DNA from: Paludisphaera soli
GTDB taxonomy: Bacteria; Planctomycetota; Planctomycetia; Isosphaerales; Isosphaeraceae
NCBI RefSeq assembly: GCF_011064595.1
Contig: NZ_JAALJI010000008.1
Location: 1-64,000, forward strand
Reading direction: 5' to 3'
DNA length: 64,000 nt
Position 1 is the first letter of the stretch; every line of letters starts with the position of its first letter. The position numbers and the translations under genes are program-made. The notes beneath the pieces are model-generated. The model was not told the origin of the DNA, searched no databases, and saw nothing but the letters and a program-made list of their open reading frames with translations. Positions 33,634 to 36,691 of the stretch are shown one piece after another.

Positions 33634-34794
33634 TCAACGCGGGGCGGGAGGGGCCTTCATCTCCGCGAGCAGGGCGTCGACGGCCCGATCGAGTTCTTCC
33701 CCCCGGACGTCGATGTGACGGATGACGCCGGCCGGGTCGAGCACGTAGACGGTGGGCCAATGCCGGACGTCGTAGGAGGTCTGGATCGCGCCGCGGACCC
33801 CGCCGTCCCACCACGACGGCCACGACATCCGCTTCTCGACGGTCGCCTTGCGGGCCTTCTCCCGATCCTTGGGCGAGTCCGAATTGACGCCGAGGAGGGC
33901 GAAGGGCTCGCCCTTCAGGCGGGAGACCAGCTCGCGCTCGTGCGGGACCATCGCCATGCAGGGCCCGCACCAGGTGGCCCAGAAACAGACGACGACCACC
34001 TTGCCGCGATGGTCCGAAAGCTTCAGCGGCCGCCCCTCCAGGTCCTCGCCGACGATCTCGGGGGCGACCTTGCCCACCTTCAGATTCGCCAGGTTCTCGA
34101 ACCGCGCCAGCTCCCCCTTCGCGCGATCGGCCAGGAGGAAGTCCCCCTCGACCGAGCGGACGTCGGCGAACTCGTCGACGACCTGCCGGAACCGCCGTTG
34201 AGCCTGCTCGATCCCCTCTCCCGAAGCGGCCTCGGCCGTGTCGCCCCCGCCGGCGCGCTGCTCGGCCGCGTAACGGTGGCCGCAGGCCAGGGCGTAGGTC
34301 GCCTGGCCGCGGACGACCCGGTCGGGATGGCGATCGGCGACGTCCCGGATCAGGCCGATCGATTCCGGCCGCGAGGCGAGCGAGGCGCAGAGCTTCCCGA
34401 TGCGGGGATCGTCCAGGAAGCGGGCTCGGACGATCGCCTCGTCTTGCGGCTGGAGGAAGCTCCGCATGGGGCCGGTGAGAAGGATCAGACCGTCGAGCGC
34501 GGCGGGGTCCTCGGGGTGCGTCCGGACGAGGGCCCGGACCTCGTCCGCCATCGCGAACCATTCGCGCTGGAAGTCCGCGTTCTCGTCGGTGATCTTCTTC
34601 TGGCGTGCGTCGCCTTCCAGCTTGTTGGCGGCGGTCAGCTCGTCGTAGAAGGCCTTCTCGCGGGCCTCGAAGCGTCGCCCGAGTGCGGCGATCCGAGGGC
34701 CGGGGGCGTCGGCCTCGGGGTCCTGGTCGTCGCCCGGCGCGACGAGTAGGCCCAAGGCGACGGCCATGCGGAGCAGGGGGGCGAGGGGCGTCAT
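33634..34794 (-). CDS. TlpA-like thioredoxin-fold protein, 386 aa
   Basis: The C-terminal 150 residues form a TlpA/ResA-type thioredoxin domain with the redox motif WCGPC inside VVVVCFWATWCGPCMAMVPHE and a conserved cis-proline region HWPTVYVLDPAGVIR. The N-terminus has a hydrophobic export segment (LLRMAVALGLLVAP), and the middle 200 residues are helical, as in many planctomycete redoxin proteins with a long N-terminal extension. It is likely exported and acts in thiol-disulfide exchange, for example in cytochrome c maturation or in repair of exported proteins, which is inference. It sits next to the intron-bearing tRNA. Confidence 0.88.
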   Translation of the reverse strand: MTPLAPLLRMAVALGLLVAPGDDQDPEADAPGPRIAALGRRFEAREKAFYDELTAANKLEGDARQKKITDENADFQREWFAMADEVRALVRTHPEDPAALDGLILLTGPMRSFLQPQDEAIVRARFLDDPRIGKLCASLASRPESIGLIRDVADRHPDRVVRGQATYALACGHRYAAEQRAGGGDTAEAASGEGIEQAQRRFRQVVDEFADVRSVEGDFLLADRAKGELARFENLANLKVGKVAPEIVGEDLEGRPLKLSDHRGKVVVVCFWATWCGPCMAMVPHERELVSRLKGEPFALLGVNSDSPKDREKARKATVEKRMSWPSWWDGGVRGAIQTSYDVRHWPTVYVLDPAGVIRHIDVRGEELDRAVDALLAEMKAPPAPR

Positions 34795-34882: not shown

Positions 34883-35213
34883 TGCGGCCCGCAGGATTCG
34901 AACCTGCAACCAAGGGATTCAAGGGCCCCCGCGTTTCCACGGGGCTTGGACTATCTCATCCTCGCCCCGGCCGCGGGGCGGTCGGGGGAGGCCGGGCGCT
35001 CTGGGCGGGGGTTATCGTTGGGGCTCACCCCGCTAGTCTCTGAACCTTCCTGGCCACCGGATGCCCGGCCAGGCTCGGCTGCGGATCGCCATGCCCCCTC
35101 GCGGAGGTTTAGGTTTCCCGCAATTCACCCGGTTCGCGGTCGGGGGTCGCCCCCCGGCGCCACCATTCCTCTGGACTGATGAGTCCCCTGCTCTGCCGTT
35201 GAGCTAGGGCCGC
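34883..35213 (-). tRNA. tRNA with CAU anticodon (Ile2 or elongator Met), interrupted by a group I intron
   Basis: Exon 1 (35213-35179, 35 nt) starts GCGGCCC TA GCTC and ends in the anticodon loop at CTCAT. Exon 2 (34919-34883, 37 nt) starts AATCCCT. Joined, they fold as a perfect cloverleaf of 72 nt: 7-bp acceptor stem GCGGCCC/GGGCCGC, D stem GCTC/GAGC, anticodon stem GGGGA/TCCCT (one G-T), loop CTCATAA, and T arm GCAGG-TTCGAAT-CCTGC, with discriminator A and no encoded CCA. G1 pairs with C72, which excludes initiator tRNA. Anticodon CAU leaves Ile2 (lysidine-modified) or elongator Met; the anticodon stem-loop looks closer to Ile2, but this is not decisive. Confidence 0.9.
34920..35178 (-). 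ncRNA. Group I intron in the tRNA anticodon loop, 259 nt, no ORF
   Basis: The insertion lies between tRNA positions 36 and 37. Exon 1 ends with T and the intron ends with G, as group I splicing requires. An internal guide GTGG shortly after the 5' splice site can pair with the exon end CTCAT including the U-G wobble. Core elements are visible: a P4-region GCGGGAAACCTAAACC (about 35121-35106), a P7 5' strand within AGAGACTAG (about 35041-35033) and its partner GATAGTCC (34955-34948). A P9-type hairpin with GAAA loop (CCCCGTGGAAACGCGGGG) precedes the 3' end. It closely resembles the Azoarcus tRNA-Ile(CAU) intron in size, site and core, so self-splicing is expected. No homing endonuclease frame fits inside. 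Confidence 0.88.
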
Positions 35214-35296: not shown

Positions 35297-35308
35297 CAGA
35301 AACGACGA

Positions 35309-35335
35309 ACCGCCGCGAGGTTCGCTCGCGGCGGT
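35309..35335 (-). terminator. Main terminator hairpin of the desaturase gene
   Basis: A perfect 11-bp inverted repeat, ACCGCCGCGAG and CTCGCGGCGGT with a five-base loop, sits 34 bp after the desaturase stop. The T-rich stretch TTCGTCGTTTC follows on the minus strand. Position and strength fit transcription termination. Confidence 0.7.
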
Positions 35336-35369
35336 CGGAAACTTGTTCGGGAACGATCGACCGCGCCGG

Positions 35370-36365
35370 TCAGGCGGAAGTCTGCTGCATCTCGCTGCGG
35401 ACTTCCCGGGGGGCGGGGGCGACGGCGGGGGGGCAGGAGGGGGCCGCAGCGGTCGTCGGCGGGACGGCCGGGCGGACGTCGGTCTCGACGATCGTGCCGT
35501 CGGCGTTCTTGCGGACCTTGGGGAGCTTGATCTCGCTGGCGAGGCCGAAGACCTGCATCAGCTTGATCGTCCAGTAGGTCGGGTCGACCTCCCACCAGTC
35601 GAGGCCGTGGCGGGCCGAGGTCTGGAAGGCGTGGTGGTTGTTGTGCCAGCCCTCGCCGTAAGTCAGGGCGGCGCACCACCAGAGGTTCGTGGACTGGTCG
35701 CGGGTGGCGTGGGTTCGGTAGCCCCAGACGTGGCTCGCCGAGTTCACCAGCCAGGTCGTGTGCCAGACGAACAGGGTGCGGACGAACCCGCCCCAGATCA
35801 GCCAGCTCATCCCCAGCCCGCCGTACCACTGGCCGGCGGCGTACAGCCCGGCGAACAGGGCCATGGGGAAGATCAGGAAGTAGTTGTCGAAGAACCGCTG
35901 GACCGGGTCGCGGTAGAGGTCGGGTGCCCAACGCTTGTAGTAGGCCTCGCCGTGGCGCGACGTCTCGTCGGTCACCATGAACCAGCCCATGTGGGCCCAG
36001 AACAGGCCGCGGAGCGGCGAATGCGTGTCCTGCTCCTCGTCGGAGTAGGCGTGATGGCGGCGATGGTCGGCCACCCAGCCGATCGCCCCGCCTTCGGAGG
36101 CGGTCATGCCGATGATGGTCAGGGGATATTCGAGCCACTTCGGCCAGAGCTTGAAGCTGCGGTGCGTCAACAGGCGGTGGTAGACCAGGCAGATCCCGAT
36201 CCCGCCGGTGAGCCAGTGCAGGGCCAGGCAGATCAGCAGGCCCGACCACGAGAAGAACGCCGGCACCACCGCCAGCAGCGCGAGGACGTGTATGCCGCCG
36301 ATATAGAAGATCGGCGCCCAGGCGATGCGCTTTGAGACCGGCGGCGCGGTCGTCGTTGTGCTCAT
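35370..36365 (-). CDS. Membrane fatty-acid (acyl-CoA) desaturase, 331 aa
   Basis: A di-iron desaturase introducing a double bond, probably delta-9, into acyl chains. The three histidine boxes are present and well spaced: HRLLTHR, HRRHH (in WVADHRRHHAYSD) and HNNHH (in GEGWHNNHHAFQ). Four hydrophobic spans surround them. The ATG at 36365 (MSTTTTAPP) follows AAAAAGG by about nine bases; a frame to 36443 exists but lacks such support. The C-terminal 40 residues are Pro/Ala-rich and dispensable-looking. Two strong hairpins terminate the gene. It likely tunes membrane fluidity. Confidence 0.93.
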   Translation of the reverse strand: MSTTTTAPPVSKRIAWAPIFYIGGIHVLALLAVVPAFFSWSGLLICLALHWLTGGIGICLVYHRLLTHRSFKLWPKWLEYPLTIIGMTASEGGAIGWVADHRRHHAYSDEEQDTHSPLRGLFWAHMGWFMVTDETSRHGEAYYKRWAPDLYRDPVQRFFDNYFLIFPMALFAGLYAAGQWYGGLGMSWLIWGGFVRTLFVWHTTWLVNSASHVWGYRTHATRDQSTNLWWCAALTYGEGWHNNHHAFQTSARHGLDWWEVDPTYWTIKLMQVFGLASEIKLPKVRKNADGTIVETDVRPAVPPTTAAAPSCPPAVAPAPREVRSEMQQTSA

Positions 36366-36691
36366 AGTCAACCTTTTTGGTGTAGCTTTCGAGAAGAGTT
36401 CCGCGACGAGCCTTCGATCGCCGAGGGTGCGCCTGCATCGCACCGGGCTAGGCTATGCAGGATCCGCGCCGGCATCCTCAGACGTCGAGGATCCGTGCGG
36501 CGTCGGCCCGATCGGTCGTTACTGGGATTATCGTTCGCGAGGAAACGGACAACAAGGCGTTCGCCTCTCGCCCGTTTGTACCATTTTTCACGGACTCGCG
36601 GGGAGCGAGTCCTTCCGAAAATCCGGCCCGATCCGGCCGCCGCGGCGGGCCCGAGGCGACCCGACGCCCCATCCGCCTGGCGGCCCGGACG
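36366..36691. other. Intergenic region between B12-radical SAM and desaturase genes
   Basis: This 326-bp stretch is less GC-rich than its surroundings. It should contain the desaturase promoter; no clear -35/-10 pair stands out. A perfect 8-bp inverted repeat, GGACTCGC and GCGAGTCC around a five-base loop, lies at 36592-36612 behind the radical SAM gene. It has no T-tract on the minus strand, so I do not call it a terminator. No gene is seen here. Confidence 0.45.

Follow-up and report, generated by a model that had tools for sequence, protein, structure and literature searches.

The DNA analysed here, a stretch of 64,000 nucleotides referred to as the window, carries on its minus strand a tRNA gene that is interrupted immediately after its CAU anticodon. 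What the interrupting sequence is, which tRNA the gene encodes, and whether the cell depends on the removal of the insert are the questions raised by this locus. The reading favoured here, to which we assign a probability of about 0.92, is that of an apparently single-copy tRNA-Ile2 gene that hosts, between its positions 36 and 37, a compact group I intron, spliced by the group I pathway, mostly transmitted vertically, and whose splicing is probably obligatory.

Layout of the split gene and fold of the intron

The gene spans 331 nt (35213-34883, minus strand) and is made up of a 5' exon of 35 nt ending with the anticodon (35179-35213), an intron of 259 nt (34920-35178) and a 3' exon of 37 nt (34883-34919). 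The first-pass annotation had described two exons of these lengths joining to a cloverleaf, and an insert of 259 nt placed after position 36 and ending in G. Both descriptions hold. Joined in silico, the exons are folded by ARAGORN into a full tRNA(CAU) cloverleaf with one G.U pair in the anticodon stem; the coordinates of the insert agree, and its final G (34920) is invariant among related introns. The downstream neighbour, on the minus strand (33634-34791), encodes a protein with an AhpC/TSA-redoxin domain, and the upstream one, also on the minus strand (35370-36443), a fatty acid desaturase. A terminator-like hairpin (35308-35336, minus strand), recognised by a consensus match only, separates the tRNA gene from its upstream neighbour.

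Run without the intron option, ARAGORN reports zero tRNAs in the window, and nothing is found in the window by Rfam at curated cut-off; both null results are taken as a matter of limited sensitivity. ARAGORN in intron mode sets a different junction, and calls a tRNA-Gln(CTG). Two observations lead us to reject this placement. Exactly the joined exons CTCAT/AATCCC, the slash marking the junction, occur in four genes of other families that lack the intron (L226, L227, L229 and L231, from families f4 and f8), and the pairings in P1 and P9.0 that fit the CAU placement are kept throughout the alignment of related introns.

In a search against all Rfam families, the window intron matches Intron_gpI with 36.5 bits (E 9.1e-08) over P3-P7-P3', and a second piece gives 14 bits over P7'-P9. 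The search, suggested earlier as a check on the group I assignment, is thus significant for the window copy, though this falls below the curated cut-off of 50 bits. The cut-off is passed, with the whole model covered, by 12 of the 20 related loci scanned, of which 19 come from the family of the window (f1, which we take to be the Isosphaeraceae) and one, which fails, from genome G056 of family f4. Weak matches to Plastid-ycf2, tRNA, miRNA and CRISPR-DR9 families are regarded as tRNA-arm or chance matches. The Intron_gpI E-value, and the fact that relatives share both its site and its structure, argue that the window intron is more than a chance resemblance.

A structure of 12 helices was drawn on the window sequence after the alignment had been inspected. 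The alignment includes 41 sequences, 40 introns from f1 and that of G056; L101, another entry for gene L062, was left out, as was the copy of G020, which is split over two contigs. Exon ends are kept in all the 41 genes, and all introns start after CAU and end in G, their length varying from 252 to 416 nt. Standard pairs fill 99.0% of 2412 pair cells (59 pairs). Changes on both sides occur in 22 of the 59 pairs; shuffled alignments have 6.6 on average, with 0/500 as high, and slid controls 4-9. Such changes involve five pairs each in P2 and P6a, four in P9, three in P9.0, two in P4, and one each in P1, P3 and P7; P5, P6, P8 and a P7.1-like stem have zero.

All helices lie on the minus strand. 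P1 (35160-35182) pairs the exon end UCAU and the first intron base with a guide (35160-35164); the 5' splice site is marked by a U.G pair, as expected for group I introns, in 41/41 sequences; the adjacent pair features a both-sided change in three. P2 (35141-35156) is a hairpin with a GNRA-type loop, in which 5/6 pairs have both-sided changes. The group I core, in which P3-P8 is combined with P4-P6 and P7, is recognisable, and its helices are kept in the alignment. The two strands of P3 (35126-35132 and 34992-34998), as well as P4 (35118-35123 with 35079-35084) enclosing P5 (35112-35113 with 35089-35090), are defined by both the Rfam match and the alignment. P6 (35077-35078 with 35045-35046) is followed by P6a (35068-35073 with 35049-35054), where 5/6 pairs change on both sides. 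P7, the guanosine-binding helix, joins a 5' strand (35034-35038) to a 3' strand located by alignment (34949-34953), and is paired in 41/41 sequences. P8 (34988-34991 with 34960-34963) is paired in 98.8% of cells. P9.0 (34945-34947 with 34921-34923), in which all three pairs have both-sided changes, surrounds the P9 hairpin (34927-34944), closed by a GAAA loop and changed on both sides in 4/7 pairs; P9.0 and the terminal G are also typical of group I introns. The P4, P7 and P9-like elements and the guide pairing to the exon end (P1) noticed in the first-pass annotation have thus all been located. To these are added P2, P3, P5, P6, P6a, P8 and P9.0, as well as a hairpin that lies between P7 and P3'.

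Identity of the tRNA and probable dependence on splicing

The spliced tRNA is identical to E. coli tRNA-Ile(CAT) at 58/73 positions. The five E. coli matches listed, out of 5474 matching records, are all annotated as tRNA-Ile, and the one that was read has the anticodon CAT. ARAGORN labels the spliced gene tRNA-Met, with which it shares the CAU anticodon, and the host of the intron could accordingly be an elongator tRNA-Met. This is very improbable, since the other CAU tRNAs of the same genome are less similar to E. coli tRNA-Ile(CAT) (53/74 for L024, 44/73 for L025, 44/74 for L030), and AUA codons would have zero tRNA without the window gene. Of the four other CAU genes, two (L025) are read as initiators, one (L030) as initiator-like and one (L024) as an elongator. 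The genome also encodes TilS, so that the window gene combines the anticodon, the similarity to a known tRNA-Ile(CAU) and the modifying enzyme distinctive of tRNA-Ile2.

The tRNA inventory of the genome was drawn from 65 tRNA-model hits, of which 62 were read with ARAGORN, the three unread ones being weak (16.9-20 bits). It includes one Ile(GAT) gene and, besides the window gene, the four CAU genes. The 62/65 candidate places read in this 197-contig assembly yielded neither a tRNA-Ile(UAU) nor a tRNA-Ile(CAU) without intron. A search for intron-free paralogues had been recommended earlier, with the remark that self-splicing would be obligatory if this were the only Ile2 tRNA. Since TilS is present, and tRNA-Ile(UAU) and an intron-free copy are absent from the inventory, splicing is probably obligatory for the formation of tRNA-Ile2 in this genome.

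Splicing of the window gene is inferred from the intron family to which it belongs, and covariation supports the fold. The pre-tRNA-Ile2 would fold so that the anticodon is paired in P1 with the guide sequence via the U.G pair. The 5' splice site would be attacked by an external guanosine held in P7, which would then give way to the final G of the intron, and the exons would be joined. The CAU anticodon of the mature tRNA would presumably be modified to lysidine by TilS, and read AUA.

It may be objected that this is a pseudogene, or that its intron has decayed, and that AUA is read by another tRNA. The position of the window copy below the Rfam cut-off is in keeping with this, as is the rarity of AUA, with 31 occurrences among 18231 codons when 41 long ORFs of the window, uncurated, are counted. 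Yet f1 exons are 98.2% identical, against 79.5% for well-aligned intron columns; exon 1 and exon 2 covary in the acceptor stem, where 3/7 pairs have both-sided changes; core helices are intact in 41 sequences; and the inventory has no other Ile2 or Ile(UAU) to take over. Decay is therefore extremely improbable. That the fold is of group I type but splicing requires the help of a protein, for example a synthetase-like or a DEAD-box factor, has somewhat more in its favour, and is a minor possibility. Small tRNA group I introns, such as that of Azoarcus, splice alone in vitro, which argues against such a need. The intron is, by contrast, very rich in G+C and may misfold, and helper proteins are described for some group I introns in passages of PMC3984707.

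The window gene is not the only split tRNA gene of this genome. The only tRNA-Lys(UUU) detected (L186, G000 contig 24, 195138-195510, outside the window) is interrupted after position 34 by a group I intron of 300 nt. The intron is found in the tRNA-Lys(UUU) gene of 28 of the 30 f1 genomes searched; the gene is intron-free in G021, and in G010 the sole match is to a tRNA-Arg gene.

Distribution and inheritance of the intron

The 331-nt gene was searched in 99 genomes, 45 of which belong to f1, scoring the best seven candidates per genome. An intron-bearing gene is found at the same site in 41/45 f1 genomes; in one of these, G020, the copy is split over two contigs. The complete gene was not found in the other four f1 genomes, one of which has 25 nt of an exon at a contig end and three zero match. 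Five other exon-like matches in f1 genomes are tRNA-Arg genes, and the remaining weak ones fall in the intron part of the query. An exact core pattern was found in 30 stretches from named genomes, and Singulisphaera, Tautonia and Aquisphaera are among the carriers, in line with the planctomycete host envisaged in the first-pass annotation. Two MAG contigs titled Candidatus Kuenenia stuttgartiensis (L147 and L162) have the same size as contigs of the f1 genomes G036 and G027, and their titles look wrong.

Distances between introns correlate with distances between RpoB proteins (r 0.74 in 26 f1 genomes, 0.86 with G056 added), and 0/2000 permutations are as high. RpoB was found in 30/30 genomes; the fragmentary G004, G008 and G009 were excluded from the comparison. 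The correlation fits an intron whose transmission within the Isosphaeraceae, judging from these sequences, has been mostly vertical. Recent acquisition as a mobile element would be suggested by related introns found in tRNA-Asn genes of family f3, and by G056, which carries an intron at the same site while its f4 relatives G047 and G052 are intron-free. The agreement of intron and RpoB distances makes recent acquisition quite improbable, as does the small size of the closed ORFs in the 41 introns (82 aa at most), with no homing endonuclease gene apparent among them. An origin from phages or plasmids has similarly been discarded, because the core pattern has 0 matches in viral contigs, the intron of a relative (L059) shares with phages a piece of 32 nt only, in 23 records (E 6e-3 in the best ten of the 23), and it has no plasmid match.

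The P7.1-like hairpin and comparison with known introns

The hairpin located between P7 and P3' (35005-35033, minus strand) measures 29 nt, and is found in all the 40 aligned f1 introns, with a mean identity of 93.0%. Host genes of other tRNA introns were assigned by eye from 57 loci. The P7.1-like hairpin is absent from 33 other tRNA introns compared, namely that of G056 and those in tRNA-Lys (8), tRNA-Leu (7), tRNA-fMet (5) and at a second site of tRNA-Ile2 (12), and is present in two tRNA-Asn(GUU) introns of family f3 (L109 and L174). The latter interrupt a different tRNA at a different site, plausibly between positions 35 and 36 by inspection; no published name was found for them. An exact hairpin pattern occurs in 40/397 genomes of the class (38 from f1, 2 from f3) and in 2/392 across the phylum, both f1, and misses variants, as G008, G024 and G025 have the hairpin but no match. 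When a profile of f1 introns devoid of the hairpin is used, the Asn introns score 51.8 and 32.2 bits, that of G056 32.8, and the others scanned 16.6 or less. The intron of G056 is therefore about as close as one of the Asn introns, and it is the hairpin, not the score, that separates them.

Intron_gpI matches with E <=0.01 are found in 84/397 genomes of the class, 39 of them above cut-off, and by inspection are hosted by tRNA-Leu, fMet, Lys, Asn, Ile2 and rRNA genes. The second-site introns, at positions 33/34 of tRNA-Ile2(CAU) in other families of the class, have also been assigned by inspection (L177, L181, L182, L183, L199, L201, L209, L214, L218, L220, L221 and L222). In L205 (genome G243) a group I intron apparently interrupts another tRNA gene, possibly tRNA-Arg(CCU), with the exon AGCGGCGGTTTCCT; it may be likened to the known group I intron in tRNA-Arg(CCU) of Agrobacterium.

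In a tentative and rather unlikely scenario, a distinct lineage of hairpin-marked tRNA introns would have switched hosts between tRNA-Asn and tRNA-Ile2, become fixed in an ancestral Isosphaeraceae genome, and been domesticated there; jointly with the tRNA-Lys(UUU) intron, it would make the reading of AUA and AAA dependent on ribozymes, possibly as a regulatory step sensing GTP or Mg2+.

The hairpin also bears on the subgroup. In IC3 introns P7 and P3' are joined by a short segment and P7.1 is absent, whereas the window intron has 29 nt of hairpin there. IA introns carry the extra stems P7.1/P7.2 between P7 and P3'; the window intron has one stem-like insert, and the T4 stretch used as a yardstick (td, nrdB) itself lacks both an Rfam match at cut-off and a matching motif. 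P7.1 and P7.2 are named as class features in a passage of PMC3984707.

One of the closest known systems is found in Azoarcus. The first-pass annotation had stated that a group I intron sits in its tRNA-Ile(CAU), and the sections of PMC6274277 on this pre-tRNA agree, reporting that the triplet recognised by the guide is the CAU anticodon, and that a U.G pair forms where the 5' exon ends. The guide triplet being thus paired to the anticodon, the Azoarcus intron must occupy the same site after position 36 as the window intron. As far as these accounts go, the introns of Azoarcus sp. BH72 (IC3) and of the window share tRNA and site, and neither has a reading frame of note. They differ because the former is not known to have the P7-P3' hairpin and is about 205 nt long, and the latter has the hairpin and measures 259 nt.

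Group I introns have similarly been described, in parts of PMC8450103, as hiding tRNA-Ile2 from tRNA finders in Acidovorax and Burkholderia. By these descriptions, they interrupt the same tRNA in another phylum. The same tRNAscan-SE 2.0 paper mentions 36 genomes in which the fMet or Ile2 gene is hidden by group I introns. Self-splicing introns in the anticodon loops of cyanobacterial tRNA-Leu(UAA) and tRNA-fMet, mentioned in sections of PMC4033280, involve other tRNAs and sites than the window intron. Leu and fMet introns also occur in the class of the window; those compared, seven and five respectively, differ from the window intron in lacking the P7.1-like hairpin, and stay within 16.6 bits with the hairpin-free f1 profile. 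Hosts in the table of that 2014 review are only cyanobacteria, alpha- and beta-proteobacteria.

No report of a planctomycete tRNA-Ile(CAU) group I intron was found in open-licence literature by title or abstract, in keeping with the earlier remark that no well-described planctomycete case was known; the host supplement of PMC8450103 may name some. Since such genes escape programs that do not allow for group I introns, as this one escapes plain ARAGORN and as reported in parts of PMC8450103, annotations may wrongly lack tRNA-Ile2 and tRNA-Lys(UUU) in these bacteria. The Isosphaeraceae, a family with cultured members, extend the range of bacteria hosting group I introns in tRNA genes. In one genome, two isoacceptors seem to be dependent on self-splicing, and the support of essential tRNAs by ribozymes therefore becomes testable in organisms that can be grown. 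Compared to known systems, the occurrence of group I introns in tRNA-Ile(CAU) is not novel; new are the group of hosts, the fixation of the intron throughout a family, the additional hairpin and the presence of a second tRNA gene that is split.
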